From assembly GCA_023634235.1 (NCBI GenBank), contig JAMKCF010000018.1, positions 12,832,932 to 12,896,931 of the forward strand: a stretch of DNA of 64,000 nucleotides. Direction: 5' to 3'. Shown here piece after piece: positions 3,061-59,590 of this stretch. Both the position numbers and the translations under genes were made by a program. Below the pieces are notes generated by a model, which ran no database searches, was not told the origin of the DNA, and worked only from the letters and a program-made list of their open reading frames with translations. Origin of the DNA: Pisaster brevispinus. Its lineage: Eukaryota; Echinodermata; Asteroidea; Forcipulatida; Asteriidae. Every line of letters starts with the position of its first letter. Position 1 is the first letter of the stretch.

Positions 3061-3083
3061 ATATAAATTAATGTAAGCAGTTT

Positions 3084-9813: not shown

Positions 9814-10355
9814 TTCAGAATTTACAAGACCTTGCCAATATATAACAACCTACCAAGTTTCAACATGATAGCACTAATACTTCGGGAGATATACGAGTTC
9901 AAAAAGTGCACCTTTAATGCCACGTCACGTGACCCCGATGACGTCATCGATCTAAAACTTCACACATATGACAACTGCCTGACGGTCAACATGTGTGTAA
10001 ATTTTGAAGTGATTACACCAAACTTCACCACACACATCTTCAAAAAGTCCATTTTGATCAGTTTTCAACCTGCCGCTAGAGGGCGCTCTTGTGTGTTGTG
10101 ACGTCATCGGTATTTTTTTTGTAATTGCCCACCCTTGCCAAACAATAACATCGTTGAAAGCAACTTCATAAAAATTTCCACTTTTGAATTACAAGGCACT
10201 TCCTGTTTCGACCGGAAGTAGAGGTCATGTGAGGTCACGCACACTGAATAAAATAGACCTAGTTTATCACCACCCAATCCCGCAAACCGAAACCTACGGT
10301 CTTTTGTGGTTGATTTGATATAGATTTTCAAATATTTAAAAAAAGGAAACTTTAA

Positions 10356-10393
10356 TATGACGTCACGTGACAGGTGATGACGTCATCATGACA
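10356..10393. promoter_or_regulatory. TGACGTCA / CACGTGAC cluster
   Basis: ATGACGTCACGTGAC followed by GATGACGTCATCATGAC. It mirrors the 9791 and 9921-9952 clusters, so the insert is built from repeated palindromic modules. Confidence 0.45.
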
Positions 10394-10864
10394 TCAATGT
10401 TTTAGGATCATTATTGCACCAATACCTTTCATCACTGAAAGTTTCATTGCAATCGCTCATTGGGAACATTGCAAAATAACGCATACAAACGTTTTTACTG
10501 AAACATACAAATAAAAAAATAATAATAACTAGAAACGAGTTTGTAACGAACAAACACTGGGGTTTCGGCTTTTTAAATAATTGTAAATAATAAACTACCA
10601 TACCAATGATAAAGTAATTAATAAGCTATACCGCACAGACCTTGAAATAAATTGTGGTGGGAGAATGCAATGAAATTGTGCGAGAACAAACCGCTACTAA
10701 TATTATCCCAAAACACTTCCGTATTAAGTTCGAGGACTCTCCACAAACAAGAGGGCGCTATACAGGTGCACCGTTAACTGTAGAAGCGCAGCAGCTAACC
10801 AAAATGAACGGTACACAGGTCGAACGATGCCATGCGCGTGGACAATGGGCTGTATGGGTCTGGC

Positions 10865-10884
10865 CCATAGAGCAAGCTCTATGG
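10865..10884. repeat. 9-bp stem inverted repeat
   Basis: CCATAGAGC, two bases, GCTCTATGG. Short perfect hairpin in the insert; no known role. Confidence 0.6.
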
Positions 10885-11249
10885 TCTGGCCGTATGCAGC
10901 GTGTTACGATGCCTAGCGTGGGAAGCAATGGCTGTGTGGAGGGATGGCCGTATGCGATGTACAGCGTGAATTACGTGCAATGTACACACACAAGACGATC
11001 GTGCTTTGTTGACGATACGTGTTTTTAAATCGTTAATATCGTCAACAGATGATTAAAAACCCTCGATCGAACTGCTGCTTGATCTAAGTTAGAGCACAGG
11101 CTTTCATTTGATGTATTGTTTGTGTCTTTTAAGACTGTAGTTCCTGAGATCGAACGATAACAAATTTCATGTGTAAATGCTATGAGACTTTTTCGGAAAG
11201 AAGAATAATAATAGTGAAAAAAAAAAAAAATCTCGACAAAAACAAAGGT

Positions 11250-37083: not shown

Positions 37084-37205
37084 ATGTCTACTGTAACGCG
37101 GTATTCCCAGGAGGTCTCCCGTCCAAGTACTGACCTGGCCCGACGCTGCTTAACTTCCGTGATCAAACGAGAACGGTGTTTTCAGCGTAGTATGGCCGTA
37201 GACAA
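37084..37205 (-). rRNA. 5S unit: uninterrupted sister of the transposon target
   Basis: Carries the rare 3' end CTACTGTAACGCGGTATTCCCAGG seen only here and at the left edges of the two transposon copies, but continues normally into AGGTCTCCCGTCC. It therefore shows the target before insertion; the duplicated bases ATTCCCAGG are at 37103-37111. Confidence 0.85.
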
Positions 37206-40666: not shown

Positions 40667-40692
40667 GTCTACTGTAACGCGGTATTCCCAGG
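40667..40692 (-). pseudogene. 5S rRNA gene 3' fragment, left of transposon A
   Basis: The last 26 nt of a - strand 5S gene, cut off after ATTCCCAGG (40684-40692) by the transposon. Confidence 0.88.
40684..40692. repeat. Target site duplication, left of A
   Basis: ATTCCCAGG, repeated at 48362-48370 on the other side. The uninterrupted sister unit has it once. Confidence 0.8.
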
Positions 40693-40706
40693 CGCTCTCC
40701 CAGCCA

Positions 40707-40738
40707 AGGACTTATCCGGGTCCTCAACCCACCAATCA
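40707..40738 (+). repeat. Left terminal inverted repeat, copy A
   Basis: AGGACTTATCC, 13 bases, then ACCAATCA. The right end read in reverse is AGGACTTATCC, 6 bases, ACCAATCA. The stretch from the element edge to here also resembles 5S box C in - orientation. Confidence 0.78.
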
Positions 40739-40820
40739 TTGAGCTCTGTTGAGCAGCCAGTTTCCTCAACAGGCCAATCAGTGAGCTCTGTTGAGCAAGC
40801 TCTTTGCTCAACAGACCAAT
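40731..40820 (+). promoter_or_regulatory. Subterminal 42-bp repeats with CCAAT boxes
   Basis: CCAAT at 40732, 40774 and 40816, exactly 42 bp apart. Each repeat contains GAGCTCTGTTGAGCA and CTCAACAG, which pair with each other. These could be CCAAT-box promoter elements, transposase binding sites, or both. Confidence 0.55.
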
Positions 40821-40838
40821 CACCGACCGATGTTGAGG

Positions 40839-40871
40839 ATGACGTCAACTTCGTGACCTGCCATCACGAAG
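40839..40871 (+). promoter_or_regulatory. CRE-like site and hairpin
   Basis: ATGACGTCAAC (CREB/ATF-like) at 40839-40849, overlapping a perfect hairpin CTTCGTGA / TCACGAAG (40849-40856 and 40864-40871). With the CCAAT repeats it gives the left end the look of a polymerase II promoter. Confidence 0.45.
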
Positions 40872-41635
40872 ACGGTCAGAGGTCGATCAGCTGTTGATAC
40901 TCACGAAATCAACCATTCATTCACGCGAAGACATTATTATTTGGATTACGGTAAAATTTCCCACAAAAAAGAGCACGATAATAAAATGTTGAAATGACAG
41001 AAAAGAATATGGATCCGACAGCTAGCTCTATCGTTCATTATGTGTGCTGAAACCCCCGAATGAGTAAGAAAACGTAAAGTTTACATACGATCGCACGATC
41101 GGATTAGCCGGTACCATGGTACTGGGTAAGGCATTGTACTAAACTAGGTAAGCTTAGGGAAAATTTTCCCACTTTTTCACTCATTTTTACAAGTTTAGTT
41201 ATAAATAGTGGTTGTGTATAATACTTAGATGGATGCCATTATAGATAGTATACGGGACTGAAAAAAAGACCGAGTCTAGACTCTAGTGTCTGGTCTGTGT
41301 ATTGTAGATAGTATAGATGGGGAAAATCGTTAATAGTTAAGTCGCTGCTAGTGCTACTGGATACTGGCACTTGCTAAGTATGTATAATGCACCCACAACT
41401 CATCATAAGTCATGACTCGTGGCCATGTAAGAAAATGGTTGTACGTTTTTAATCAGCTTTGAATTATCAAGTACATGTATAATCAACAAGCCCGATGGTT
41501 CAAAAATAGGATGTAAACAAATAGTCATGTATACGTATATGAAACATGATTTTCAAACCACATTTTTTACATTGTACATTGTGTACATTGCACTTATAGA
41601 CACATTTTGAATTTATGTATTGTTGTTATTAACAG
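40872..41635 (+). other. 5' leader region of the copy A gene
   Basis: No coding sequence seen. It contains a TATA-like box and strong splice donor candidates at CTGG|GTAAGG (about 41125) and CTAG|GTAAGC (about 41147), one of which could end a non-coding first exon spliced to the acceptor at 41635. Bases 41034-41248 are absent from copy B. Confidence 0.5.
41199..41207 (+). promoter_or_regulatory. TATA-like box, copy A only
   Basis: TTATAAATA, a good match to a metazoan TATA box, about 430 bp before the start codon exon. Deleted in copy B together with its surroundings. Confidence 0.4.
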
Positions 41636-42184
41636 GTCAGAATGGAGGCAAAGCAAGGGATGTACAAATGCAGCAAGTGTCATCAAGAGTTCAATGTCAA
41701 ATCAAACTTGACTAGACATATGAAAAAACATGAGGAAAAGCTTTTCCAATGTCCAGGTTGCAGCAAGACGTTTACACTAAAACAAAACTTAGAAAGTCAC
41801 TCAAAGCAGCATTTTTATCCTGCAATACCCCATTTCAAGACAGGAGAAGCGAGACTGAAATGCTCCCAAGAAGCTGCCCATGTAGCTGGTTGCTCCTATA
41901 AGGCACCGGTTGAAAATGTGTGGCATCCAGACAAAGCTGAAACAGACGCAAGGAGAATTAGTGGCTCCTTGTGGAGAGCCAGTTTAATCATCCAATTTGG
42001 AAAGTATTCCGGCAAAAATTTCAAGTGGCTCCTTGAGAACGATGTTGGCTGGGTGGTGTGGCTACTGGATGCCTTCAGCATTCATGGTGAGAAGTGCCCC
42101 AGCATGCTCTGGCAGAAAGAGAGACTGCTAGAATTTGTCAAAGAATTTCCCTCTGTAAGGTGCCATCTTGACAACCGACTTAAG
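41636..42184 (+). CDS. Copy A coding exon 1 (zinc fingers)
   Basis: Acceptor ATTAACAG before, donor AAG|GTTAGT after. Start codon at 41642. Encodes both C2H2 fingers and the FGKYSGKNF segment (181 codons). Confidence 0.8.
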
Positions 42185-45100
42185 GTTAGTTTTAAATGCA
42201 ATGTACAGTATCTCACCATTATTTTAGGAGTGATTTCACCGGGTAGATATATGTGGGCATGAATGAAGACTCTTCATGATCATTACATAACTCCCAAACT
42301 CATGGGATGATAACATGTACTGTACTAAAGAACCAATATCTATACAAGACTAATTGTATTTATAATACTAGATGGTTTTACTTTAAGTATGAACCATGAA
42401 AAGAATCAACAATGAGTCAGATGAGTTGTGTAGTAGAGTTAACTCTTGCATCACACACACGAACACATGCTTGACTAATGAGATGGATCCCAATACTAAT
42501 CATTTCAATACAGTTTGAACAGGAAGTTAGAAAGAGAGGCTTTTTTTTCATTTGCAGAAGCCGAAGGAGAAAAAAGATGCACCTATCGCAGCAGGGGACT
42601 TCGAAGATGACTATATTAAAGACGCTGAACTACTGGCAATGGCAGGTAAGCTATATTTGGGGGTTTTCTGTAACTTTTTAGAAAAGAGGTCAAATGTTTT
42701 TGATATTTGATACAAAAATAAACAATAATCTGCTTGTAATTCAGATGACGATGTATGTTTCCATCTTGAATTTTGGTTGAATTTTCTTTCAGTTTTCATG
42801 TCTTAATGAAGATGAAGTGCATTGCAGCATTGGTGAGAAATTATTTTTGTCTGCTTGTGTGGTATTGAGGTGACCCTAATTTGCCTAGAAATCTTGATAT
42901 TGTAGCTCTGTTTGCTGTGTTTCTGTAGCTGACATAGCTGTTTCTGTAGCTGGCATAGCTGTTTCTGTAGCTGGCATAACTCTATTTAGCTGGGATAGCT
43001 TTATTTCTTTCTGTAGCCGTGATAGCTGTAACTATTTTTCTCCTTCCGCTTCCTCCTTCTATTCTACTGTATTACTAACTTTGCACATTATCGTTATGTT
43101 GGAACTTGCTTGACAATGTACAGAGCTAAAAGTTGTGCTATTGTTCCCATCACTTCTTTTCTTTGCAACTCCTATATGGTTCCTTCCCTTTGCTCTGATC
43201 TTTACAAATTTAAAGGGGCAGGTCATGATCCTATAATACCTTATATATTTTCTGTACTCATAAATAAATTATATCCAGATCGTGTCTGTAAAATATATAA
43301 CAAATTTTGAGTGTACGCAGACCATTCAAATTTTACAAGACGTTTAATCTTCGACTCCTTCGAGCAAATGGATCGTGACGTACTCCTTTAATATTTATTC
43401 TTATTACATTGTTTATATAAACAAATCATTTATGGTGAAGGATGTGGTACATTGGGTGGACTGTACAATTTTTCTTTTTTCACATGTATTTTAGAATTAA
43501 AATTGCTCTTACTCTTTGACTTTTCAGAGGATGTACTCATGGACTCAGGGGTTGGTGTGTCCACTCAGATCACATCTGTTGGAAAGCTTCTGCCTTCATC
43601 AGAATCAACATTGGCATCAGAAGACAGACCTTCGACATCATCAGCAGACAGATCTTTGTCCTCTGTGGATGATTCTACCGTGCAGGAAGGGTGGCAGAAA
43701 TTCTGGGACGAGCCTCCAGCACAGGTTCAGGGCATCTCTCCCTCAAACGTTCGATGGCTAAAGACTGATGGGCCATATGGCATCTTTGAAACAGCAAAGA
43801 TGTACACTACATCCAAAAGAGAATTTGGGACTCGGCAAATCTTCAAGAAGAAGATGGAATTTAATCCCCCACCTCTTCCAACTTCAGTGAAAGGGTCCTT
43901 GCCATCTATGCTGTCCTTCTTCACCACTCCTGTCCTCTTCTGGAGACCAGTTGGAGTGATGGAGATCAAGATAAAATGCCCCAATCCAAAGTGTCCTGCT
44001 CCACCAGGTAGTTACCTGACCAAAAGCGGCTATGGAAACATTGCGCGACAAGTGTGCGGCATGAGGCACTACTACACACTCTTGACAGAAAGACTTAAAT
44101 GCAATCCTTGCATGAGACTTAGACAGCAGGCCAAGAGTGAAGATGACCAGCCACTCCAATATAGATGGCATGCCTTCAGCCCCAGCATCCTCATGCAACT
44201 TTCCCCAGCAGTTAAGAGCATGTTTCCAGCCATCATCTGTGGAAAGCGGGCTATAGACAAGAACGTTGTGACATTCCTGAGTGATAGGCTCAATTCTGTA
44301 TCTATGACCAAGGTGCACCGAATGATCCAGCAAGGCCATGACGAATGGTATGCAGAGAGAAGAGACTTGTACCAGACTCTACTGATGGAGGCACATACTG
44401 CCAGCAAAGCACCTATGTCACAGCGTGGTATACTCTCCTTTACAGACCATCACTATACCCCGCCTATCCCGCCAACTCCACTTCCATCCCCCCGTGTTCT
44501 GCGTAGAGCTCAACTCATCATGGAGATGGAAAAGATGCCTGTCTACCGATCATCTATCATGAGTGTGACTGGAGAGATACTGTGCATGGATGGTACAAAA
44601 CAGGTAGATATTTTCTTTTTCTGTTTGTATTATTATCATTATTCATTACTAATTCAGTTTTTTTAACAAAGTACTATGGCACTGTAAAATATATAACAAA
44701 TCTAGAAAGAAAGAACCAGAACAATGACAGATTAAATTGATCTTCAAATTTACCAACAATTCTTTCACACTAGTAAACATGTATATAAATACAATAATAC
44801 ACCATAATGGAAAATGCCAAATGTGGACAAAGATTTTAAAGCCCAGTCCAATTACATTCAATAGGGGGTTTCACTTGAAGTGAAAATGAAAAGTTCATTG
44901 TTTTAATGTGAATCATTTGAAAAAATGAACTTATGACAGTGATTGAAAATATGATTTTAAATTGTAATTTAAGTGGAAAATGAAGAAAAACAGTCTAAGA
45001 CAGAAATCTTTTACTACAGCTGTAATTTTGTGTGTGTATTTGCATGTTTTCTACATACAGGTTCTTAAGAAAATTCAAGGAGATGGAAAAGGCACCATGC

Positions 45101-47670
45101 ATTATGTTACCAGTGTGCTGAATGAGTGGGGGCAGTTTCTGACAACTGTTGTAGTCGCCTCTGAGTCGGAGAATTGCTACAGGAGGCTTGCTGAGGGACT
45201 CACCGCACGCTTTAAACGTGCCAATGCTGCAGCGCCAAAGGTGCTCTACGCTGACAACAACTGTTGTAGGTATGTCAAGTATTTTGCGCTAAGGATTTTG
45301 TGCAAACAAATCTATGAAGTGTGCTTATTTTCACCATATAGATTTACGTGGGTGAAGTGGAAATGGTTATCAATTCCGTTCAATTCTGATTGCATTTGTT
45401 TCAGGGATGGTGGGGCCTCATGGCTTGAATCCCTCTTCCAAGACTGGAGTGATGATGGTATGGTCATCAGACTCGACATTTGGCACTGGCTCCACCGGTG
45501 GGAAGCTGTTGTGATAAAGCAGTCACATGCCAAGTATGGAGTGTTCATCAGTGCTCTAGCTGGTGCAATACTGGCATACAACAAACATGACATGGACCAA
45601 CTCATCCAAGCCATCCGCAAAGGGAACAAGGACTTCTCGCAGTACAGGAATGAAGAAATGCTGTCTTTCGTCAAGCCACATCAGGCATCAGCTTATGTGC
45701 GCCGAGTGACACGTGGTGTCCAGGTAAGCTGATGGTATTATTTTGTGCATATTTTTATTTCAAAAACTAAGAAGGATCTTTGCATTGAAAGCATCGAAAC
45801 ACATTGTTGATCTTCAAAATTAGTCTCTGCATTGTGAACACTTTGTCCTTCATCGGTTAATGAGGATTTCAGATGTTGCAAATTGTGAAAGATACCCATC
45901 AGTGACTTTTTACTGTATTTGTTTTCTTTCTCACACAGGAAACAAGAATGTGAAAAACTAAAGGAATCATGATTACTTTAAATTAGTGCATTTACACAGA
46001 TCTCTTGCTTTTTTCTGCAGGAGAGTGCATTTGCTGTTGAGTACATCCTGGAAGAGTTCAAGGGTCGAGCTGGTCTAGACATCGATGGTATCCCTTTGTT
46101 TAAGTCACCAGAAGCTGTCGATAAGCATTGGGCAACTGCCAGTAAACATCTGAGTTGTATGCAGGTAAGGTTACACAATGGGTCATTAATACACAGACAA
46201 ATTCGTACAGCCTGCTGATTAAAAAGCAATAGTTGAGTTATACAACACCGGCAGCGTAACGGTGTTGTTACAATCCAGTATTGGTACACTGTACCCCTGT
46301 GCCCAACTAAATTGTAACAACAACGTTATGCTCCTGTACCGGTATCAGAACTTCGCAGGCTGGTACCAGTGATGAAACTGAATTAGTGTTTTTCAATCAG
46401 CAGTCCGTATTGATTTTGCAGTGTATAAGTATGAAACTTTTATATGTGTGACGCCATATCTTTTTAAGCCCTATACTTCATTTTATATCCAATTTATGCA
46501 GTGATATTAATGCAATGATTATAAAGAACCCTGTTATACTTCATGGAATGTTAAATCTTGATTTTTTCCAATTTGTTCAAAATGAGAAGGTCTGACATAA
46601 TTTATAGAAGACCCTAATGTATGTTCATAATGTTTAATAAAATGTCAAATTTACAACTTATGATTTAAAATATCCAAATATTTGACTTTAGAATGTAAAA
46701 ACAATGTATGAAGAACTTTGGAATTATCCACATTTTTGTCATTATATTCAGGATCCACCAAATATCCAGCTGTACGTGGCGACCAAGGTTGTTACTATCA
46801 ATGGGGTGAAGCTGAACAAGTACAGGTGTCGAAGAGGCAGCAACTCCTTGGAAGGGCTTCATGCCCACTTAATAAATGCCATCCCTTCGAAGCGATGTGG
46901 CATAATTCCTTTCCAGGTTAGCATGTACATTTACATTGTTGTGGTATATTATGCTCAGTCAGAATTATAAAGTAGCATCTCTTTTGTATAATGGTGCATT
47001 TTGTGACAAATTTAAGAAATCCTGTTGTGCCTCAAAGCATCAGTGGACATTTAATAAACAAACTACCAATTTTGTAGGGCAGGACTGAGATAACTTAAGC
47101 ACATGTTCACTGGTTCCACTCCATGGTCAGAAATCATGAGCACTAGTCTATTTGGATAATAATGTTGACCTCTGAATAAAGTTGTCTAAACCTTGATGGA
47201 GGACAGATTCAGCTCTATGTTGATTGACATAGTATAATGCGTACAGTTGATATTGTATTGACTCCTTCATTCTTTCACTCCTTTGTTCTGTCAATTAAAT
47301 TAGAATATATTCATTTAAAATACATTCATTATAAAGTGCATTATGATAAGTATGATGACATTTCATTTGAAAACATGTATTCTAATGTGATGATTCATAC
47401 TTTGTCCCTCTTATCTTCCAGGTATATCTCATCTCCTTTGCCGTGCAATGGAATAACCGCATGGAAAAACTGAAGGTTGCTGGAGGGAAGGGACGAACTA
47501 CATGTGTTGATCCACGGCAAATACAAAGGCTCAACCAACATGCAGAAATCTTGTTTGGGAAAGATCATTTGTTTGAGCCCAATTTTTCTTCACCAATGGT
47601 CTTCCCAGACAGCTATGAGCCTGCAGAAAAAGAGCTTTTGGGAGTTGAACAGATTTTGCTCTTGTTTTAA
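41642..47670 (+). CDS. DUF6729-like DDE transposase, copy A (3'-truncated, 8 exons)
   Basis: Joining exons 41642-42184, 42558-42645, 43528-44603, 45061-45269, 45405-45723, 46021-46164, 46752-46916 and 47422-47670 gives one open frame of 930 codons; every junction is GT-AG and phases match. Residues 1-60 hold two C2H2 fingers (C10, C13, H26, H30; C37, C40, H53, H57). Residues 117-145 (FGKYSGKNFKWLL...) resemble a short motif also seen at the C-end of ExoX-like nucleases. Residues 330-560 form a Cys-containing region (C361, C366, C402, C405) that I recognise as DUF6729-like. An RNase-H-like core follows: D565 in CMDGTK, D634 in LYADNN, D663-x2-H666 in RLDIWHWLHRW, and E827 in RGSNSLEGLHAHL. The spacing (68, then 193 with an insertion) fits MULE-type transposases. 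The true C-terminus is lost: after LLGVE the frame runs into deleted-junction sequence, adding QILLLF and a stop. Probably nuclear and DNA-binding; activity without the C-terminal third is doubtful. Exon 1 starts at an AATGG start codon right after an acceptor, so an upstream non-coding exon is likely. Confidence 0.78.
42558..42645 (+). CDS. Copy A exon 2
   Basis: Between TTTGCAG and GTAAGC; Lys-rich start (KPKEKKD) then an acidic stretch (FEDDYIKD). Confidence 0.75.
42905..43040 (+). repeat. Intronic ~21-bp tandem repeat
   Basis: TGTTTCTGTAGCTGGCATAGC repeated about four times with decay, inside the second intron; also in copy B at about 50950-51090. Confidence 0.75.
43528..44603 (+). CDS. 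Copy A exon 3 (DUF6729-like region, first Asp)
   Basis: Acceptor CTTTTCAG, donor CAG|GTAGAT; 1076 bp. Ends right after the first catalytic Asp motif CMDGTKQ. Begins with a Ser-rich linker. Confidence 0.85.
45061..45269 (+). CDS. Copy A exon 4 (second Asp)
   Basis: Acceptor CTACATACAG, donor TAG|GTATGT. Ends with KVLYADNNCC, holding D634. Confidence 0.83.
45405..45723 (+). CDS. Copy A exon 5 (D-x2-H motif)
   Basis: Acceptor TTGTTTCAG, donor CAG|GTAAGC. Holds RLDIWHWLHRW. Confidence 0.83.
46021..46164 (+). CDS. Copy A exon 6
   Basis: Acceptor TTTTCTGCAG, donor CAG|GTAAGG; 48 codons of the insertion domain between second Asp and Glu. Confidence 0.8.
46752..46916 (+). CDS. Copy A exon 7 (catalytic Glu)
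   Basis: Acceptor ATATTCAG, donor CAG|GTTAGC. Holds CRRGSNSLEGLHAHL with E827. Confidence 0.83.
47422..47670 (+). CDS. Copy A exon 8, truncated by deletion
   Basis: Acceptor TCTTCCAG. Matches copy B up to GGAGTTGAA (47649), then enters sequence that in B lies 3.1 kb further on, reaching a TAA at 47668. Confidence 0.83.
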   Translation, partial: VYLISFAVQWNNRMEKLKVAGGKGRTTCVDPRQIQRLNQHAEILFGKDHLFEPNFSSPMVFPDSYEPAEKELLGVEQILLLF

Positions 47671-48310
47671 GAAAGAATGCATAAGAGGTGAAAACAAATA
47701 AAATACAGAGTCCTTTGATATCAACACTTTGTGTTGTGTTTTGCTTATTTTTAATATGAGTAGCTATTTTCTCTCAGTGATTTATTTCCTCACTTTTTGT
47801 AATGTTTAATTGAAGCTTTTAGCATGATTGCAAAGCTTACCTGTGTCTAACCATCCAACTTAAAGAAATTAGCCAAATTTATTGTTTGCATGAAATCACC
47901 GAGCAACGGAGAACTGTTGATAGTATAACACATTGTGAGAAACGACTCCTTCTGAAGTAACATAGTTTTTGAGAAAGAGGTAAATTCTCCCTCTAATATT
48001 ACAGACATCGGGGCATTTGAAAGCACTCAAAATCACTCAAATTTGTGCAACAAGGGTATTCTCTTCGTAAAGCCTTTTATTACGCATCTTTCAATATTCT
48101 CTTGCAACTACAAATGAGGAATTGAGTTCAAATTTTCACAGATTTGTTATTGTTATTGCTTATGTTGGGATACACGAAGTAGAATACTGGTCATTAACAA
48201 TTACCAAAGTTGTATTTAACCATTTTGGGGCAAAGCTGTTCAGAGAAGACAAGAGAGGGCGCTTTTCTATGACTTCCGGTGATCTGGTAGAATCTGGGAG
48301 AACTTCCGGT
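47650..48310 (+). other. Copy A 3' untranslated end region
   Basis: Non-coding sequence shared with copy B (58787-59438). Contains AATAAA at 47697-47702, a possible poly(A) signal for the truncated gene. No other gene seen. Confidence 0.6.
48272..48310 (+). promoter_or_regulatory. Two ETS-type sites next to right TIR, copy A
   Basis: ACTTCCGGT at 48272-48280 and 48302-48310, 30 bp apart; ACCGGAAGT on the - strand is the ETS consensus. They may instead be subterminal transposase sites. Confidence 0.4.
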
Positions 48311-48334
48311 GATTGGTCAACCAGGATAAGTCCT
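48311..48334 (-). repeat. Right terminal inverted repeat, copy A
   Basis: On the - strand it reads AGGACTTATCC, TGGTTG, ACCAATC, matching the left end. Confidence 0.78.
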
Positions 48335-48335
48335 C

Positions 48336-48352
48336 GGGGGGGGGGGGGGGGG
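48336..48352 (+). repeat. Poly-G tract at right terminus, copy A
   Basis: 17 consecutive G between the TIR core and the element edge; copy B has 16. Confidence 0.9.
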
Positions 48353-48361
48353 TGATGACCC

Positions 48362-48463
48362 ATTCCCAGGAGGTCTCCCGTCCAAGTACTGACCTGGCCC
48401 GACGCTGCTTAACTTCGGTGATCAAACGAGAACCGGTGTTTTCAGCGTAGTATGGCCGTAGAC
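48362..48463 (-). pseudogene. 5S rRNA gene 5' part, right of transposon A
   Basis: Starts with the target duplicate ATTCCCAGG (48362-48370) and continues as a normal 5S gene to its 5' end at 48463. From here on the DNA is the same as that to the left of A (40088 onward), not as that to the right of B. Confidence 0.85.
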
Positions 48464-48543
48464 ATACTGCTTACATAAATTTATGTGCTTAATGGTTAAT
48501 TTCAAGATTCTGTTAGTCAAAAAAGGACGAAAACAAAATAGAT

Positions 48544-48661
48544 GCCTACGGCATCCGGTATTCCAAGGAGGTCTCCCGTCCAAATACTGACCTGGCCCGA
48601 CGCTGCTTAACATCGGTGATCAAACGAGAACTGGTGTATTCAGCGTAGTATGGCCGTAGAC
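48544..48661 (-). rRNA. 5S rRNA gene between transposon copies (1)
   Basis: GCCTACGGCATCC 3' end and AAATACTGACC; same unit as at 36680 and 40270. Confidence 0.85.
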
Positions 48662-48741
48662 AAACTACTTACAAAAATTTATATGCTTAATGGTTAATTT
48701 CAAGTTTCTGTTAGTCAAAAAAGGACGAAAACAAAATAGAT

Positions 48742-48859
48742 GTCTACGGCACCCGGTATTCCCAGGAGGTCTCCCGTCCAAGTACTGACCAGGCCCGATG
48801 CTGCTTTACTTCGGTGATCAAACGAGAACCGGTGTATTCAGCGTAGTATGGCCGTAGAG
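48742..48859 (-). rRNA. 5S rRNA gene between transposon copies (2)
   Basis: Full length; 5' end reads GTAGAG. Same as the unit ending near 40586. Confidence 0.83.
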
Positions 48860-48939
48860 AAACTGCTTACATAAATTTATGTGCTTAATGGTTTTCTTCA
48901 AGTTTCTGTTAGTCAAAAAAGGACGAAAACAAAAAAGAT

Positions 48940-48965
48940 GTCTGTTGTAACGCGGTATTCCCAGG
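48940..48965 (-). pseudogene. 5S rRNA gene 3' fragment, left of transposon B
   Basis: Duplicate of the fragment left of A, ending with ATTCCCAGG (48957-48965). Confidence 0.85.
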
Positions 48966-48979
48966 CGCTCTCCCAGCCA

Positions 48980-49011
48980 AGGACTTATCCGGGTCCTCAA
49001 CCCACCAATCA
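48980..49011 (+). repeat. Left terminal inverted repeat, copy B
   Basis: Same sequence as copy A; the CCAAT-bearing 42-bp repeats follow at 49005, 49047 and 49089. Confidence 0.78.
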
Positions 49012-49688
49012 TTGAGCTCTGTTGAGCAGCCAGTTTCCTCAACAGGCCAATCAGTGCGCTCTGTTGAGCAAGCTCTTTGCTCAACAGACCAATCACCGAC
49101 CGATGTTGAGGATGACGTCAACTTCGTGACCTGCCATCACGAAGACGGTCAGAGGTCGATCAGCTGTTGATACTCACGAAATCAACCATTCATTCACGCG
49201 AAGACATTATTATTTGGATTACGGTAAAATTTCCCACAAAAAAGAGCACGATAATAAAATGTTGAAATGACAGAAAAGAATATGGATCCGACAGCTAGCT
49301 CTATCGTATACGGGACTGAAAAAAAGACCGAGTCTAGACTCTAGTGTCTGGTCTGTGTATTGTAGATAGATGGGGAAAATCGTTAATAGTTAAGTCGCTG
49401 CTAGTGCTACTGGATACTGGCACTTGCTAAGTATGTATAATGCACCCACAACTCATCATAAGTCATGACTCGTGGCCATGTAAGAAAATGGTTGTACGTT
49501 TTTAATCAGCTTTGAATTATCAAGTACATGTATAATCAACAAGCCCGATGGTCCAAAAATAGGATGTAAACAAATAGTCATGTATACGTATATGAAACAT
49601 GATTTTCAAACCACATTTTTTACATTGTACATTGTGTACATTGCAGTTATAGACACATTTTGAATTTATGTATTGTTGTTATTAACAG

Positions 49689-50238
49689 GTCAGAATGGAG
49701 GCAAAGCAAGGGATGTACAAATGCAGCAAGTGTCATCAAGAGTTCAATGTCAAATCAAACTTGACTAGACATATGAAAAAAACATGAGGAAAAGCTTTTC
49801 CAATGTCCAGGTTGCAGCAAGACGTTTACACTAAAACAAAACTTAGAAAGTCACTCAAAGCAGCATTTTTATCCTGCAATACCCCATTTCAAGACAGGAG
49901 AAGCGAGACTGAAATGCTCCCAAGAAGCTGCCCATGTAGCTGGTTGCTCCTATAAGGCACCGGTTGAAAATGTGTGGCATCCAGACAAAGCTGAAACAGA
50001 CGCAAGGAGAATTAGTGGCTCCTTGTGGAGAGCCAGTTTAATCATCCAATTTGGAAAGTATTCCGGCAAAAATTTCAAGTGGCTCCTTGAGAACGATGTT
50101 GGCTGGGTGGTGTGGCTACTGGATGCCTTCAGCATTCATGGTGAGAAGTGCCCCAGCATGCTCTGGCAGAAAGAGAGACTGCTAAAATTTGTCAAAGAAT
50201 TTCCCTCTGTAAGGTGCCATCTTGACAACCGACTTAAG
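49689..50238 (+). pseudogene. Copy B exon 1, frameshifted
   Basis: Seven A instead of six at 49776-49782 turns MKKHEEK into MKKT and a stop (49785-49787), so finger 2 and all later exons are out of frame with the normal start. Confidence 0.85.
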
Positions 50239-50608
50239 GTTAGTTTTAAATGCAATGTACAGTATCTCACCATTATTTTAGGAGTGATTTCACCGGGTAG
50301 ATATATGTGGGCATGAATGAAGACTCTTCATGATCATTACATAACTCCCAAACTCATGGGATGATAACATGTACTGTACTAAAGAACCAATATCTATACA
50401 AGACTAATTGTATTTATAATACTAGATGGTTTTACTTTAAGTATGAACCATGAAAAGAATCAACAATGAGTCAGATGAGTTGTGTAGTAGAGTTAACTCT
50501 TGCATCACACACACGAACACATGCTTGACTAATGAGATGGATCCCAATAATCATTTCAATACAGTTTGAACAGGAAGTTAGAAAGAGAGGCTTTTTTTTC
50601 ATTTGCAG

Positions 50609-50696
50609 AAGCGGAAGGAGAAAAAAGATGCACCTATCGCAGCAGGGGACTTCGAAGATGACTATATTAAAGACGCTGAACTACTGGCAATGGCAG
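50609..50696 (+). CDS. Copy B exon 2
   Basis: Same as A exon 2, with KRKEKKD at the start. Confidence 0.7.
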
Positions 50697-51571
50697 GTAA
50701 GCTATATTTGGGGGTTTTCTGTAACTTTTTAGAAAAGAGGTCAAATGTTTTTGATATTTGATACAAAAATAAACAATAATCTGCTTGTAATTCAGATGAC
50801 GATGTATGTTTCCATCTTGAATTTTGGTTGAATTTTCTTTCAGTTTTCATGTCTTAATGAAGATGAAGTGCATTGCAGCATTGGTGAGAAATTATTTTTG
50901 TCTGCTTGTGTGGTATTGAGGTGACCCTAATTTGCCTAGAAATCTTGATATTGTAGCTCTGTTTGCTGTGTTTCTGTAGCTGGCATAGCTGTTTCTGTAG
51001 CTGGCATAGCTGTTTCTGTAGCTGGCATAACTCTATTTAGCTGGGATAGCTTTATTACTTTCTGTAGCCGTGATAGCTGTAACTATTTTTCTCCTTCCGC
51101 TTCCGCCTCTTCTACTGTATTACTAACTTTGCACATTATCGTTATGTTGGAACTTGCTTGACAATGTACAGAGCTAAAAGTTGTGCTATTGTTCCCATCA
51201 CTTCTTTTCTTTGCAACTCCTATATGGTTCCTTCCCTTTGCTCTGATCTTTACAAATTTAAAGGGGCAGGTCATGATCCTATAATACCTTATATATTTTC
51301 TGTACTCATAAATAAATTATATCCAGATCGTGTCTGTAAAATATATAACAAATTTTGAGTGTACGCAGACCATTCAAATTTTACAAGACGTTTAATCTTC
51401 GACTCCTTCGAGCAAATGGATCGTGACGTACTCCTTTAATATTTATTCTTATTACATTGTTTATATAAACAAATCATTTATGGTGAAGGATGTGGTACAT
51501 TGGGTGGACTGTACAATTTTTTTTTCATAGTATTTTAGAATTAAAATTGCTCTTACTCTTTGACTTTTCAG

Positions 51572-52647
51572 AGGATGTACTCATGGACTCAGGGGTTGGT
51601 GTGTCCACTCAGATCACATCTGTTGGAAAGCTTCTGCCTTCATCAGAATCACCATTGGCATCAGAAGACAGACCTTCGACATCATCAGCAGACACATCTT
51701 TGTCCTCTGTGGATCATTCTACCGTGCAGGAAGGGTGGCAGAAATTCTGGGACGAGCCTCCAGCACAGGTTCAGGGCATCTCTCCCTCAAACGTTCGATG
51801 GCTAAAGACTGATGGGCCATATGGCATCTTTGAAACAGCAAAGATGTACACTACATCCAAAAGAGAATTTGGGACTCGGCAAATCTTAAAGAAGAAGATG
51901 GAATTTAATCCCTCACCTCTTCCAACTTCAGTGAAAGGGTCCTTGCCATCTATGCTGTCCTTCTTCACCACTCCTGTCCTCTTCTGGAGACCAGTTGGAG
52001 TGATGGAGATCAAGATAAAATGCCCCAATCCAAAGTGTCCTGCTCCACCAGGTAGTTACCTGACCAAAAGCGGCTATGGAAACATTGCGCGACAAGTGTG
52101 CGGCATGAGGCACTACTACACACTCTTGACAGAAAGACTTAAATGCAATCCTTGCATGAGACTTAGACAGCAGGCCAAGAGTGAAGATGATCAGCCACTC
52201 CAATATAGATGGCATGCCTTCAGCCCCAGCATCCTCATGCAACTTTCCCCAGCAGTTAGGAGCATGTTTCCAGCCATCATCTGTGGAAATCGGGCTATAG
52301 ACAAGAACGTTGTGACATTCCTGAGTGATAGGCTCAATTCTGTATCTATGACCAAGGTGCACCGAATGATCCAGCAAGGCCATGACGAATGGTATGCAGA
52401 GAGAAGAGACTTGTACCAGACTCTACTGATGGAGGCACATACTGCCAGCAAAGCACCTATGTCACAGCGTGGTATACTCTCCTTTACAGACCATCACTAC
52501 ACCCCGCCTATCCCGCCAACTCCACTTCCATCCCCCCGTGTTCTGCGTAGAGCTCAACTCATCATGGAGATGGAAAAGATGCCTGTCTACCGATCATCTA
52601 TCATGAGTGTGACTGGAGAGATACTGTGCATGGATGGTACAAAACAG
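51572..52647 (+). CDS. Copy B exon 3 (DUF6729-like region)
   Basis: 1076 bp, open throughout. Differs from A at nine bases, seven of them changing the amino acid. Confidence 0.8.
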
Positions 52648-53104
52648 GTAGATATTTTCTTTTTCTGTTTGTATTATTATCATTATTCATTACTAATTCA
52701 GTTTTTTTAACAAAGTACTATGGCACTGTAAAATATATAACAAATCTAGAAAGAAAGAACCAGAACAATGACAGATTAAATTGATCTTCAAATTTACCAA
52801 CAATTCTTTCACACTAGTAAACATGTATATAAATACGATAATACACCATAATGGAAAATGCCAAATATGGACAAAGATTTTAAAGCCCAGTCCAATTACA
52901 TTCAATAGGGGGTTTCACTTGAAGTGAAAATGAAAAGTTCATTGTTTTAATGTGAATCATTTGAAAAAATTAACTTATGACAGTGATTGAAAATATGATT
53001 TTAAATTGTAGTTTAAGTGGAAAATGAAGAAAAACAGTCTCAGACAGAAATCTTTTACTACAGCTGTAATTTTGTGTGTGTATTTGCATGTTTTCTACAT
53101 ACAG

Positions 53105-53313
53105 GTTCTTAAGAAAATTCAAGGAGATGGAAAAGGCACCATGCATTATGTTACCAGTGTGCTGAATGAGTGGGGGCAGTTTCTGACAACTGTTGTGGTC
53201 GCCTCTGAGTCGGAGAATTGCTACAGGAGGCTTGCTGAGGGACTCATCGCACGCTTTAAACGTGCCAATGCTGCAGCGCCAAAGGTGCTCTACGCTGACA
53301 ACAACTGTTGTAG
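53105..53313 (+). CDS. Copy B exon 4
   Basis: Keeps D634 motif LYADNN; T-to-I change in LIARF. Confidence 0.78.
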
Positions 53314-53448
53314 GTATGTCAAGTATTTTGCGCTAAGGATTTTGTGCAAACAAATCTATGAAGTGTGCTTATTTTCACCATATAGATTTACGTGGGTGAA
53401 GTGGAAATGGTTATCAATTCCGTTCAATTCTGATTGCATTTGTTTCAG

Positions 53449-53767
53449 GGATGGTGGGGCCTCATGGCTTGAATCCCTCTTCCAAGACTGGAGTGATGAT
53501 GGTATGGTCATCAGACTCGACATTTGGCACTGGCTCCACTGGTGGGAAGCTGTTGTGATAAAGCAGTCACATGCCAAGTATGGAGTGTTCATCAGTGCTC
53601 TAGCTGGTGCAATACTGGCATACAACAAACATGACATGGACCAACTCATCCAAGCCATCCGCAAAGGGAACAAGGACTTCTCGCAGTACAGGAATGAAGA
53701 AATGCTGTCTTTCGTCAAGCCACATCAGGCATCAGCTTATGTGCGCCGAGTGACACGTGGTGTCCAG
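53449..53767 (+). CDS. Copy B exon 5
   Basis: Keeps D-x2-H, but HWLHRW has become HWLHWW by CGG to TGG. Confidence 0.78.
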
Positions 53768-54064
53768 GTAAGCTGATGGTATTATTTTGTGCATATTTTT
53801 ATTTCAAGAACTAAGAAGGATCTTTGCATTGAAAGCATCGAAACACATTGTTGATCTTCAAAATTAGTCTCTGCATTGTGAACACTTTGTCCTTCATCGG
53901 TTAATGAGGATTTCAGATGTTGCAAATTGTGAAAGATACCCATCAGTGACTTTTTACTGTATTTGTTTTCTTTCTCACACAGGAAACAAGAATGTGAAAA
54001 ACTAAAGGAATCATGATTACTTTAAATTAGTGCATTTACACAGATCTCTTGTTTTTTTCTGCAG

Positions 54065-54208
54065 GAGAGTGCATTTGCTGTTGAGTACATCCTGGAAGAG
54101 TTCAAGGGTCGAGCTGGTCTAGACATCGATGGTATCCCTTTGTTTAAGTCACCAGAAGCTGTCGATAAGCATTGGGCAACTGCCAGTAAACATCTGAGTT
54201 GTATGCAG
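54065..54208 (+). CDS. Copy B exon 6
   Basis: Same 48 codons as copy A. Confidence 0.78.
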
Positions 54209-54794
54209 GTAAGGTTACACAATGGGTCATTAATACACAGAAAAATTCGTACAGCCTGCTGATTAAAAAGCAATAGTTGAGTTATACAACACCGGCAGCG
54301 TAACGGTGTTGTTACAATTCAGTATTGGTACACTGTACCCCTGTGCCCAACTAAATTGTAACAACAACGTTATGCTCCTGTACCGGTATCAGAACTTCGC
54401 AGGCTGGTACCAGTGATGAAACTGAATTAGTGTTTTTCAATCAGCAGTCCGTATTGATTTTGCAGTGTAAAGTATCAAACTTTTATATGTGTGATGCCAT
54501 ATCTTTTTAAGCCCTATACTTCATTTTATATCCAATTTATGCAGTGATATTAATGCAATGATTATAAAGAACCCTGTTATACTTCATGGAATGTTAAATC
54601 TTGATTTTTTCCAATTTGTTCAAAATGAGAAGGTCTGACATAATTTATAGAAGACCCTAATGTATGTTCATAATGTTTAATAAAATGTCAAATTTACAAC
54701 TTATGATTTAAAATATCCAAATATTTGACTTTAGAATGTAAAAACAATCTATGAAGAACTTTGGAATTATCCACATTTTTGTCATTATTTTCAG

Positions 54795-54959
54795 GATCCA
54801 CCAAATATCCAGCTGTACGTGGCGACCAAGGTTGTTACTATCAATGGGGTGAAGCTGAACAAGTACAGGTGTCGAAGAGGCAGCAACTCCTTGGAAGGGC
54901 TTCATGCCCACTTAATAAATGCCATCCCTTCGAAGCGATGTGGCATAATTCCTTTCCAG
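54795..54959 (+). CDS. Copy B exon 7
   Basis: Keeps the catalytic Glu motif SNSLEGLHAHL. Confidence 0.78.
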
Positions 54960-55464
54960 GTTAGCATGTACATTTACATTGTTGTGGTATATTATGCTCA
55001 GTCAGAATTATAAAGTAGCATCTCTTTTGTATAATGGTGCATTTTGTGACAAATTTAAGAAATCCTGTTGTGCCTCAAAGCATCAGTGGACATTTAATAA
55101 ACAAACTACCAATTTTGTAGGGCAGGACTGAGATAACTTGAGCACATGTTCACTGGTTCCACTCCATGGTCAGAAATCATGAGCACTAGTCTATTTGGAT
55201 AATAATGTTGACCTCTGAATAAAGTTGTCTAAACCTTGATGGAGGACAGATTCAGCTCTATGTTGATTGACATAGTATAATGCGTACAGTTGATATTGTA
55301 TTGACTCCTTCATTCTTTCACTCCTTTGTTCTGTCAATTAAATTAGAATATATTCATTTAAAATACATTCATTATAAAGTGCATTATGATAGGTATGATG
55401 ACATTTTATTTGAAAACATGTATTCTAATGTGATGATTCATACTTTGTCCCTCTTATCTTCCAG

Positions 55465-55747
55465 GTATATCTCATCTCCTTTGCCGTGCAATGGAATAAC
55501 CGCATGGAAAAACTGAAGGTTGCTGGAGGGAAGGGACGAACTACATGTGTTGATCCACGGCAAATACAAAGGCTCAACCAACATGCAGAAATCTTGTTTG
55601 GGAAAGATCATTTGTTTGAGCCCAATTTTTCTTCACCAATGGTCTTCCCAGACAGCTATGAGCCTGCAGAAAAAGAGCTTTTGGGAGTTGAATATGCATA
55701 CTGCCAGTCCACTGACTTCTCTTCCAAGAATTATTACATTCAAGGAG
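55465..55747 (+). CDS. Copy B exon 8, complete
   Basis: 94 codons plus one base; continues past the A breakpoint (55692) with YAYCQSTDFSSKNYYIQG to donor GAG|GTGAGA. Confidence 0.78.
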
Positions 55748-56190
55748 GTGAGAAACACTTTCATAGCATACAAAAGTCAATGATGAAATTCTTTCCCATG
55801 AACTAAGACACATAGGGTGGTACCTATCTATGTTTTCTCAGCCTTGAGATACACAGCTATGGTTAGAATACATAAGTTTGTGTTAAATAAACCTCATATT
55901 TTAAAAACTTGTCATTTGACAATTGTGCTCTTTTACTTTTGCGTTGTAATTTTGCGCTGACTATGGACTGCAACTCTAGAAGCTATTGTTGGCAGAAAGA
56001 ACAAAAGAAGTTTTTTAACAAATAGACTTGTAATTTACCTAATGGGTAGTCCACACTTATGACCCATACGTAATGATGAAGTCTCTAAAAACTGTATCCA
56101 AGTTATATTCATTTGTTGTTTGGTGAAACAAATAAGAAGCTAACTATTTGTTGTTTACATGTTTGTATTCTATTCTCTTTTTTTATACAG

Positions 56191-57584
56191 CTGAAGAAGA
56201 GCAATCCAATGAAGAAGAAGAGATGGAGTCTGAGTCCGAGTCCGAGGACGAGGGCATGGAAGATGCGGGCACAGATGACATTCAAGTGGAACCAATGGAC
56301 ACAATCAGTTCCAAACATGCTGTTGTGACCAAGGAGGAGCAGATAACAGGAGATGTCAGTCCTGTCCTGGAAGATGTACTCATGACACCAAGTCATCTTC
56401 ATCTTCCAGGATATGATGATGTAGAACAACTGGCACTGCTCCTCCTTGAACTGTGCAGTGATGATGACAAGCATCTCGTCCCAGTAGAGCTAAGGAAAAA
56501 AATAGCAGAAGCAGCTGCTAAACTGGCCGAGCATGACAAGTGTGCTAGAAAGTTTGTAAAAAAGTACGAGTCTAAGTGGGGTTATACTTTGTTTGGGAGA
56601 TGTTTAGGGTCGGACAGCATGGAAATGAGTGCTGCGCAAAAAACCAAATTCGGGTGGATGCGATACGCTCAGGCAGCAGAAATCACTGAGGAGTCGAGGC
56701 TTCTTTACATTTTAATAAAAATGCTTAAGAATCGCCCAAAGGTTGGTGGCCTGTCATCTCCGACAAAAGTTGCAGCACTAATAAAATCTTCTTACAAAAG
56801 GATTGTAGACAGGGTAAAAGACGACCAAGTCTTGTCGGGGGTTGGAATTCCTCTGCCAAACATAAACACAAAATCAATAACAGCCTTCTTTGCAAAGCAA
56901 GACAAGAGATCCAACTTCCTTGCAACTGCCAAACTAAAAGTGGCAACTCACCGGAAAGTTTTGTCATCACAACCAATCCCAGCCGCGTCCAAGCTCCCTC
57001 AGTCCCTTCCATCACCATCTTATACTCAAGTACAGTACAAAGATGTTCCCCACGAGTCTGGTTAGCGACTTGGTGAGAAGAGGCGGCTTCAGTTTGATGC
57101 TCCTGAAACGCCTGATCTGAATGAGCTTCCACCCCAGTCCACAGCTTACACAGAGCCCAAATTTCAACGCTGGATTTGTCCTAAATTAACTGCATCTCCA
57201 GGATCAAGTGGTGTACCAATTCTCTTGGTCGTGCCTTCACAGCCAATGGCACACTCTGTATCCCTACAACCTGCATCAAGTAGTGTGCCTTTTATATGTC
57301 AACCTCCACCTCCTCCACCACCAAAACAGACTCGTTCCATTCCTAACCCATCCACCAAACCATGTGCTGCATGTCGTGTACCAAAATGTGGTGGGCTTCG
57401 TAAAAGGTACACACCATCAAAGACCAAGACTGTTGGCAGCAAGCAGAAAATTTTCACTTTCTGTCCAACCACAAACAAATCGACTACACCAGGATTTCAG
57501 AAAGTTTACAACAATTTTGAACATTTTCAAGCAGAGGTGGACGAAGAGCTTGGGAGGAGGAAGAGAACCGATACTCGGGACTAA
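56191..57584 (+). pseudogene. Copy B exon 9, last exon with in-frame TAG
   Basis: Acceptor TTTTATACAG. Acidic start, helical middle, Pro-rich and Cys-containing end. The frame is open from the acceptor to TAA at 57582 except for one TAG at 57063; the 172 codons beyond it are in the same frame and still protein-like, so TAG looks like a recent nonsense change or, less likely, a read-through site. Confidence 0.78.
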
Positions 57585-57790
57585 GAAGTAACTATAAATA
57601 CTAAATAGTAAACTTGTGGGTACAACCATGTATAAAATCTCTTTTGAGGGAGTGTTGGCTCACGAGCAGAGTATACTGTTCGAAACGTCGAGACCACACC
57701 GACTCTTTTCAGAGCCAACACTCCCTCAAAAGAGATTTTATACATGGTTGTACCCGCAAGTGTAGTATTTAGTATTTATAGTCACTTCTT
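57583..57790. mobile_element. Foldback insertion with 78-bp arms
   Basis: Arms 57583-57660 and 57713-57790 are reverse complements with 4 mismatches in 78 and a 52-nt loop. The 14-bp sequence TACTCGGGACTAAG stands on both sides (57572-57585 and 57825-57838), like a target duplication. It landed on the stop codon end of the transposase gene; because the duplicate includes the TAA, the reading frame end is kept. Class unknown; TSD of variable length type and foldback shape would suit a Penelope-like or MITE-like element. Confidence 0.7.
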
Positions 57791-57839
57791 ATTTTTCACA
57801 CCATGCAAAGCTTCAAACACCATTTACTCGGGACTAAGT

Positions 57840-58401
57840 TCTAATTTTAAAGTATATTCTTCCTTTATCTTTTAGCTTTTTTAGCTGAAAACAGTTTTCC
57901 ATTTTGATGGGATATTTTTGAGATATGAGGAGAATTATTCAACATAACCATTGTTAATGCATGGCATTGTTTGTTTTTGATCGGTTCTTGCAAATAGTTT
58001 GGTCAAATAGAATGTGGGTTTCAGCTACCATTAGTTAAATGATGATGGAATTTGTATATTTTTATACAAGAATGACTGTCGCTTTAATACTTCCTTTTAG
58101 TACTGCAGGTGGGATTATTCTAAAGTCAGCAGGTCTATACGGTATACACACGGAGGGAATACACATCCTGGAGGTGGGGGGGGGGGGGAGAGTGGGGGTG
58201 GTAAACTGTACTGACTATGCTAAGAGATCAATGCCAGGTTATGTGGTGTAAACAAGTAGGCGTATGTACTGCAGGTGGGATTATTCTAAAGGGTTAAGCC
58301 AGAGTGGGGAGGGGGGGGGGATGGGTACATGAAAGTGAAAACCTACTGTCCCATCCAAGGGAGAAATTTGTAGGTTAACAGTACTGCGTTTGTCATGATT
58401 T
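57840..58401. other. Non-coding 3' region with direct repeats, copy B
   Basis: No gene seen. Holds two copies of a 25-bp direct repeat starting TACTGCAGGTGGGATTA (58101-58125, 58267-58291) and two G-rich runs (about 58176-58190 and 58308-58320). Absent from copy A because it lies in the deleted 3.1 kb. Confidence 0.6.
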
Positions 58402-58781
58402 GAATAATAATAAACCGCATTTGTATAGTGCATATCACTGCTAAGTCCCTATGCGCTGGATAGGAAAAAAGAAATACCAACGGAAGAACAACTAGTGGTA
58501 ACTGGTGAATAGATGAGTTTTAAGGCGATTTTTGAATTGCCCAACCGTGACTGCTTCCTTAACAGACTCTGGTATGCCATTCCACAATTCAGCTGCAGCT
58601 ACTTGGAATGACCGAGCTCCGTAAGATTTTGTGACGTGGTGGAAGTGACGAGAAGGGACTTTGATTTGGAACGTAAATTTCTAGAAGGAATATATTTGTG
58701 AACTAGTTCCTGTAGATAAACTTGGGCTGTGCCCTGTAAACAATGAAAAGTAAGGAGGAGAATTTTAAACCTAATTCTAGC
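58402..58781 (-). mobile_element. 5'-truncated LINE fragment (reverse transcriptase C-end)
   Basis: On the - strand the translation gives FKILLLTFHCLQG, YLQELVHKYIPSRNLRS, then after a frameshift SYGARSFQVAAAELWNGIPE and VGQFKNRLKTHLF before a stop at 58492-58494. RSF.VAA..LWN.(I/L)P and FK..LKTHLF are the usual C-end signature of CR1/L2-type ORF2 proteins. The 3' end has a short TTATTATTATT tail. Dead by truncation and frameshift. Confidence 0.8.
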
Positions 58782-58786
58782 TTGAA

Positions 58787-59438
58787 CAGATTTTGCTCTT
58801 GTTTTAAGAAAGAATGCATAAGAGGTGAAAACAAATAAAAAACAGAGTCCTTTGATATCAACACTTTGTGTTGTGTTTTGCTTATTTCTAATATGAGTAG
58901 CTATTTTCTCTCAGTGATTTATTTTCTCACTTTTTGTAATATTTAATTGAAGCTTTTAGCATGATTGCAAAGCTTACCTGTGTCTAACCATCCAACTTAA
59001 AGAAATTAGCCAAATTTATTGTTTGCATGAAATCACCGAGCAACGGAGAACTGTTGATAGTATAACACATTGTGAGAAACGACTCCTTCTGAAGTAACAT
59101 AGTTTTTGAGAAAGAGGTAAATTCTCCCTCTAATATTACAGACATCGGGGCATTTGAAAGCACTCAAAATCACTCAAATTTGTGCAACAAGGGTATTCTC
59201 TTCGTAAAGCCTTTTATTACGCATCTTTCAATATTCTCTTGCAACTACAAATGAGGAATTGAGTCCAAATTTTCACAGATTTGTTATTGTTATTGCTTAT
59301 GTTGGGATACACCAAGTAGAATACTGGTCATTAACAATAACATTTAACCATTTTGGGGCAAAGCTGTTCAGAGAAGACAAGAGAGGGCGCTTTTCTATGA
59401 CTTCCGGTGATCTGGTAGAATCTGGGAGAACTTCCGGT
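58787..59438 (+). other. Copy B 3' end region
   Basis: Matches copy A 47650-48310, including AATAAA at 58834-58839. No gene. Two ACTTCCGGT sites at 59400-59408 and 59430-59438, as in copy A. Confidence 0.6.
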
Positions 59439-59462
59439 GATTGGTCAACCAGGATAAGTCCT
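59439..59462 (-). repeat. Right terminal inverted repeat, copy B
   Basis: Same as in copy A; 16 G follow at 59464-59479. Confidence 0.78.
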
Positions 59463-59488
59463 CGGGGGGGGGGGGGGGGTGATGACCC

Positions 59489-59590
59489 ATTCCCAGGAGG
59501 TCTCCCGTCCAAGTACTGACCTGGCCAGACGCTGCTTAACTTCGGTGATCAAACGAGAACCGGTGTTTTCAGCGTAGTATGGCCGTAGAC
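59489..59590 (-). pseudogene. 5S rRNA gene 5' part, right of transposon B
   Basis: Begins with target duplicate ATTCCCAGG (59489-59497) and runs to the 5' end GTAGAC. With the fragment at 40667-40692 it makes up the gene first hit by the element. Confidence 0.85.

Follow-up and report, generated by a model that had tools for sequence, protein, structure and literature searches.

We analyzed a 64,000-nt stretch of contig C18 of the echinoderm Pisaster brevispinus (the window; coordinates are window positions unless a contig is named). In keeping with an echinoderm host, the mitochondrial COX1 of this genome has AAA codons at asparagine positions, as in genetic code table 9, which is used by echinoderms and flatworms. 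The window is a tandem array of 5S rRNA genes with 206 Rfam matches and a unit of about 198 bp. The units lie on the + strand at about 3.1 to 9.5 kb; past about 11.1 kb they are on the - strand. Two large inserts with 5S units between them break the array. Both occupy the identical position in a 5S gene, at about nt 98 to 103 of about 119, and each has ATTCCC at its left border and again at its right border. A sister unit at 37103 is empty, as a first-pass annotation of this DNA had noticed: over 306 bp of left flank it agrees with insert 1 at 304 positions and with insert 2 at 303. The same annotation had read 40684 to 59497 as one DNA transposon in a 5S gene. Transposase-coding sequence does lie within 5S genes there, but a single 18.8-kb element is rejected: the region holds two elements, of 7,672 bp (copy 1) and 10,526 bp (copy 2). 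Both inserts are very probably cut-and-paste DNA transposons of the Dada type, with a DDE transposase, set at one base of the 5S gene in one orientation and flanked by duplicated ATTCCC (6 bp, perhaps 7).

The transposase gene can be followed through exons E1 to E8 in copy 2. Some 3.1 kb of copy 2, at about 55693 to 58781 and including exon E8, is missing from copy 1. One open genomic copy gives a predicted protein of 1,378 aa with C2H2 fingers, a CCCC finger (Pfam DUF6729; C333, C338, C374 and C377, in steps of 5, 36 and 3) and a DDE/DxxH core. In the alignment, the first catalytic D is present in 25/25 rows, the second in 24/25, the D and H of DxxH in 25/25 and 24/24, and the E in 25/25. A C-terminal CxxCx4C cluster is common to this query protein and six aligned relatives of its group (P0094, P0095, P0096, P0099, P0100 and P0105). 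Neither the query nor those six, fish members included, has a CCHC finger at the C terminus; CCHC is seen in eight more distant rows (P0113-P0119 and P0124; nine with P0125). Relatives of the transposase occur in sea urchin, crinoid, sea cucumber, amphioxus, Lingula and fish, and DUF6729 is present in the nearest full-length ones. In a FastTree tree the nearest row is from a sea urchin (support 0.999), and the deeper branches are poorly supported. The predicted fold of a relative is nearest to the ISCth4 transposase, which we take to be a member of IS256. A profile search of solved-structure sequences gave 0 matches, scanning viral contigs with the DUF6729 exon gave two stretches that fit a pattern and no relative, and a literature search found no paper on DUF6729.

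Is the 5S position a preference of the element or an accident of this array? We searched the genome (549.7 Mb, 512 contigs) with the left 265 bp of the element. There are at least 17 left ends, a lower bound, and all 17 candidates were scored: fourteen on C18, two on C16 and one on C12. Fourteen show 98-100% identity, and the other three, alike at 77-83% over 145 bp, represent a second family, B. A 15th young copy, represented by its right end only, lies close to the end of contig C18. In 16 of the 17 the left end adjoins one and the same base of a 5S gene; the remaining one, C16b, stands second in a tandem pair at that base. The adjoining 5S sequence is GGTATTCCC in 15 and GGTATTCCCC in one (C16a); the orientation relative to the 5S gene is always the same, and none of the 17 matches lies at a non-5S site. 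The first-pass annotation could see only one insertion event, a view that the genome overturns. Its proposal that 5S genes serve as a landing site, for which it had named repeated insertion at one 5S base as the test, is borne out by the left ends.

The alternative is that one or a few 5S insertions were multiplied passively by duplication or recombination of the array, the element having little target preference of its own. Some C18 copies are indeed such duplicates. Their left flanks fall into seven classes that are 6-17% apart and 98.3-100% identical inside a class (99.0-99.7% for a, d, g and j, 100% for c and l, 98.3% for h and i); therefore, array duplication multiplied some of them. Nor is purifying selection seen among the copies, as this alternative would have it. 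Across 12 copies (g, and C16b as identical to C16a, excluded), variants are spread evenly across the codon positions (20, 19 and 19), 44 codons have residue changes against 9 with silent changes only, and variation is about equally dense in coding (58/1,917) and non-coding sequence (66/2,540). The copies thus drift after insertion, and conservation across animals points to selection on the source.

Several observations speak against the passive account. The 5S genes on C16 and C12 have unrelated spacers, so the insertions there are separate events, and the site is common to two families only 77-83% alike. Pairwise identity is at least 99.1% among 13 of the 14 young copies (copy g, with 100 N and unrelated sequence, was left aside, and d, whose right end is not reached, was kept). 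Within this narrow range, window copy 1 shares 99.73% identity with the C16 copies and 99.39% with window copy 2; therefore, the two inserts of the window probably landed separately in sister units. Sister empty sites, moreover, persist. We consider it improbable that passive multiplication explains the distribution.

Family B (L076 at C18:8.994 Mb, L077 at C18:9.270 Mb and L079 at C12:7.166 Mb) is older and internally deleted, with the same 5S site as the young family; B2 is without a right end, and B3 lies inside a lone 5S gene on C12. Outside both families fall 11 of 26 genomic DUF6729 matches, at C18:8.508-8.559 Mb, C7:1.844 Mb, C1:16.596 and 25.17-25.19 Mb, and C16:9.046 Mb, two of them with open frames of 868 and 951 aa. 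Rfam gave 0 matches in two 8-kb stretches at such loci (C18:8.506 and 8.542 Mb).

The length of the target-site duplication bears on the type of element. The first-pass annotation had set Dada aside on account of a 9-bp duplication, with ATTCCCAGG flanking each copy. ATTCCCAGG is present at all four junctions (40684, 48362, 48957 and 59489), but it is ordinary 5S sequence with 161 occurrences in the window; hence, its presence on both sides is no proof of a 9-bp duplication, and we rejected these flanks as evidence on their own. We compared 12 junction pairs in the genome. Nine bases are common in six (a, b, h, i, j and k), as in both window copies, and seven in three (f, l and B1). In f and l another base follows ATTCCCA in the 5S gene, and yet ATTCCCAGGCGC stands at the left end; the element of B1 opens with AAGCGC where the 5S gene has AGG. 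The final GG is therefore part of the element, which leaves ATTCCC or ATTCCCA as the duplication. A 9-bp duplication is rejected, and with it the ground for setting Dada aside; the junctions support a duplication of ATTCCC, 6 bp, or 7 bp at most where the two sides differ. The choice of 6 bp follows the argument made for Dada-U1 (PMC3706591, as far as its accessible text goes).

A Mutator-type element (MULE) with a 9-bp duplication would be in keeping with the six pairs that have nine bases in common, the window copies among them. Three pairs with seven bases and two with five speak against it, as does DUF6729 in the nearest full-length relatives; no Mutator family, and no reverse-transcriptase family, is among the Pfam matches listed for nine frames, with exons scanned singly (25 of 32 families for one protein). 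We regard a MULE as most improbable.

One further junction deserves mention. Copy e (C18, L017) has the right flank TTCCCC where ATTCCC is expected; this resembles the CTTCCCC of the C16 tandem and is possibly a carried-over flank, as in Dada-tA.

The ends of the Dada-type element carry the repeat AGGACTTATCC, which has four matches in the window at up to one mismatch, all exact (shuffles expect 0.95). The first-pass annotation was right that this repeat is present at both ends and wrong in calling its copies cores of terminal inverted repeats: they are sub-terminal, 17 bp inside the left end and 26-27 bp inside the right end, and the bases outside them are unlike each other at the two ends. 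Exact AGGACTTATCC is found 116 times genome-wide (control, 139), in unrelated sequence too, and no element surrounds the other places inspected. Between the right repeat and the right end lies a G run of variable length (48335-48354 and 59463-59479 in the window), in place of which copies c, e and l have CGGAGGGG.

The left end resembles its own target. Aligned without gaps to the 5S sequence that follows ATTCCC in the empty site, the first 28 bp of the element match at 20/28 positions (C18 type) or 22/28 (C16 type), a likeness reached by 0 of 200,000 shuffles. Without AGG the match is 17/25 and 19/25, equaled by 5 and 1 of 200,000 shuffles. The 5S-mimicking stretch overlaps what we take to be box C of the 5S promoter. 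Perhaps this end is simply captured 5S sequence, or a product of homologous recombination, and has nothing to do with recognition by a transposase? The likeness itself and the frequency of recombination in tandem arrays would allow this. However, all other placements on the element, right end included, give at most 17/28, exchange by homology alone would not yield a base-exact right junction with a second ATTCCC, and Dada-U6 and Dada-U1 are reported to have an equivalent arrangement with respect to their own targets (PMC3706591, accessible text). We give this reading almost no weight.

A simple scheme would account for these features. The transposase would place the element at one base of 5S rRNA genes, duplicating ATTCCC. 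One and the same DNA-binding part of it may recognize two similar sequences, the element's sub-terminal repeat and AAGTACTGACC in the 5S gene, and the choice of site would follow from this. Insertion leaves a left junction that again resembles a 5S target, so that another copy could settle directly beside the first; the rebuilt junction would be usable once more. The C16 tandem pair, two 7.7-kb copies that are 100.00% identical with CTTCCCC between them, suggests just such a repeat landing. Exon E8 is missing from five copies (b, h, k and the two of C16; window copy 1 is among the five). They probably moved in trans, since both ends are kept and the copies lie in four flank settings. Some C18 copies also multiplied passively along with the 5S array.

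We propose tentatively, as a possibility of nearly even weight, that 5S targeting by Dada is older than the echinoderm-vertebrate split. One transposase lineage would have kept to one base of one gene, the left end of its element maintained as a likeness of the 5S sequence that it displaces, with each insertion rebuilding a usable 5S-like target.

Table 1. Features of the two inserts and their setting (window positions)
Feature	Position	Strand	Remark
Empty sister site	37103..37108		no insert; left flank as at the inserts (flank comparison)
3' stub of 5S gene split by copy 1	40667..40689	-	border inferred from intact units
Target ATTCCC, left of copy 1	40684..40689		
Element copy 1	40690..48361	+	without exon E8
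5S-like left end, copy 1	40690..40717	+	20/28 with C18-type, 22/28 with C16-type 5S
Sub-terminal inverted repeat AGGACTTATCC, left, copy 1	40707..40717	+	
Open frame with exon E1, copy 1	41633..42262	+	two C2H2 fingers; ATG 41642
Open frame with exon E2, copy 1	43392..44666	+	DUF6729, E 2.9e-25
Sub-terminal inverted repeat AGGACTTATCC, right, copy 1	48324..48334	-	
Target ATTCCC, right of copy 1	48362..48367		
5' part of 5S gene split by copy 1	48362..48463	-	border inferred from intact units
3' stub of 5S gene split by copy 2	48940..48962	-	border inferred
Target ATTCCC, left of copy 2	48957..48962		
Element copy 2	48963..59488	+	1-bp frameshift in E1; TAG 57063-57065 in E8
5S-like left end, copy 2	48963..48990	+	sequence as in copy 1
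Sub-terminal inverted repeat AGGACTTATCC, left, copy 2	48980..48990	+	
Exon E1, copy 2	49695..50241	+	C2H2 fingers; frameshift in A run
Exon E2, copy 2	51571..52647	+	CCCC finger/DUF6729; first catalytic D
Exon E3, copy 2	53105..53314	+	second catalytic D
Exon E4, copy 2	53450..53767	+	DxxH = DIWH
Exon E5, copy 2	54062..54208	+	
Exon E6, copy 2	54795..54959	+	catalytic E
Exon E7, copy 2	55465..55743	+	
Exon E8, copy 2	56190..57584	+	C-terminal CxxCx4C cluster; in-frame TAG
Sub-terminal inverted repeat AGGACTTATCC, right, copy 2	59452..59462	-	
Target ATTCCC, right of copy 2	59489..59494		
5' part of 5S gene split by copy 2	59489..59590	-	border inferred

Two further features of the array lie apart from the inserts. 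At window positions 1-3070 a degenerate TTAGGG-type, telomere-like tract adjoins the 5S array; contig C18 ends about 0.5 Mb away. At 9460-11145 the array inverts, + before and - after, across a stretch of about 1.7 kb that is not 5S. When the array was compared with itself, no higher-order repeats came past the filters, although equal Rfam scores and spacings suggest such repeats.

How well does the element fit Dada? From its predicted features we place it in the Dada superfamily, taking the C-terminal CCHC finger, stated in 2013 for all Dada (PMC3706591), as a described trait and not a defining one; were it defining, we would say that the element works like Dada-5S. It has the DxxH DDE core, the CCCC finger, a 6-7 bp duplication, sub-terminal repeats echoed in the target, and a multicopy small RNA gene as target. 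Insertion at ATTCCC of 5S, the mark of Dada-5S, is found for 17/17 left ends, one of them in tandem. Most probably, then, the element belongs to the Dada-5S lineage.

Several points weigh against this reading. The C terminus has CxxCx4C in place of CCHC, and the assignment to Dada rests on motifs, ends, target and gene structure, not on labelled Dada proteins. A Gambusia protein falls in the group of the query, yet Table 1 of PMC8869645, as accessible, has no Dada-5S from Poeciliidae. The fold model is that of a relative, with a mean predicted local distance difference test score (pLDDT) of 66.8. Site specificity rests on left ends, with the best candidates scored. Finally, junction pairs c and B3 have five bases in common and e has no match in register. 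At face value c and B3 would limit the duplication to five bases; these two pairs and e call for later change, recombination or the replacement of a flank, the last of which is reported for Dada-tA (PMC3706591).

The Dada superfamily is already known, and so is its 5S target, described in ray-finned fish (PMC8869645, accessible text), so the element is no member of a little-described group, as the first-pass annotation had thought. The present case contributes the host phylum, a second family within the same genome, junctions that support 6-7 bp and, for a 5S-targeting Dada, a left end that resembles the target. Our literature search on Dada, 5S and transposons, with Repbase and most subscription papers outside it, gave nothing that mentions an echinoderm. 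Dada-U6 is named as the target-specific lineage found in four animal phyla (PMC8869645, accessible text); a 5S-targeting Dada in an echinoderm would be the second such case. This one genome, with its second family and a minimum of 15 young copies, allows direct study of long-term fidelity to one site by a DDE transposase. Gene delivery is another reason for interest in insertion at an exact base of a repeated gene, a point that Kojima and Jurka make (PMC3706591).

Among known systems, described here from the accessible parts of the two papers, Mutsu also inhabits 5S genes, but it is a non-long-terminal-repeat retrotransposon (PMC3706591), whereas the present element has a DDE transposase. Dada-U6 and Dada-U1 have in common with it a DDE core with DxxH, a CCCC finger, introns, a 6-bp duplication, inverted repeats that are sub-terminal and not terminal, a recurrence of the repeat in the target at equal distance, tandem copies and internally deleted copies (PMC3706591). 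The CTTCCCC spacing of the C16 tandem is much like that of a tandem reported for Dada-U1, and the ends of Dada-U6 and Dada-U1 resemble their own targets, for which Kojima and Jurka speculated on a role in target recognition (PMC3706591). The Dada-U6_DR protein has 1,402 aa versus 1,378 here, CCCC steps of 5, 35 and 3 versus 5, 36 and 3, and D-D and D-E spacings of 68 and 176 versus 69 and 194; these elements differ in their targets and in having CCHC where the C-terminal finger here is CxxCx4C (PMC3706591). Dada-5S, named in ray-finned fish (Kojima 2022, PMC8869645), was compared by description and not by sequence, and its hosts are fish where ours is an echinoderm. In Table 1 of that paper, Clupeidae have only 5S, Tetraodontidae only U1 and Salmonidae only U6; the query is nearer to proteins of Alosa and Clupea (Clupeidae; 57-58% identity) than to those of Takifugu (Tetraodontidae; about 40%) and Salvelinus (Salmonidae; 32%). 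The target of Dada-5S, ATTCCCAGGCGGTC, is the same as here, and that exact string stands in the C16-type 5S sequence at the right junction of the tandem pair.

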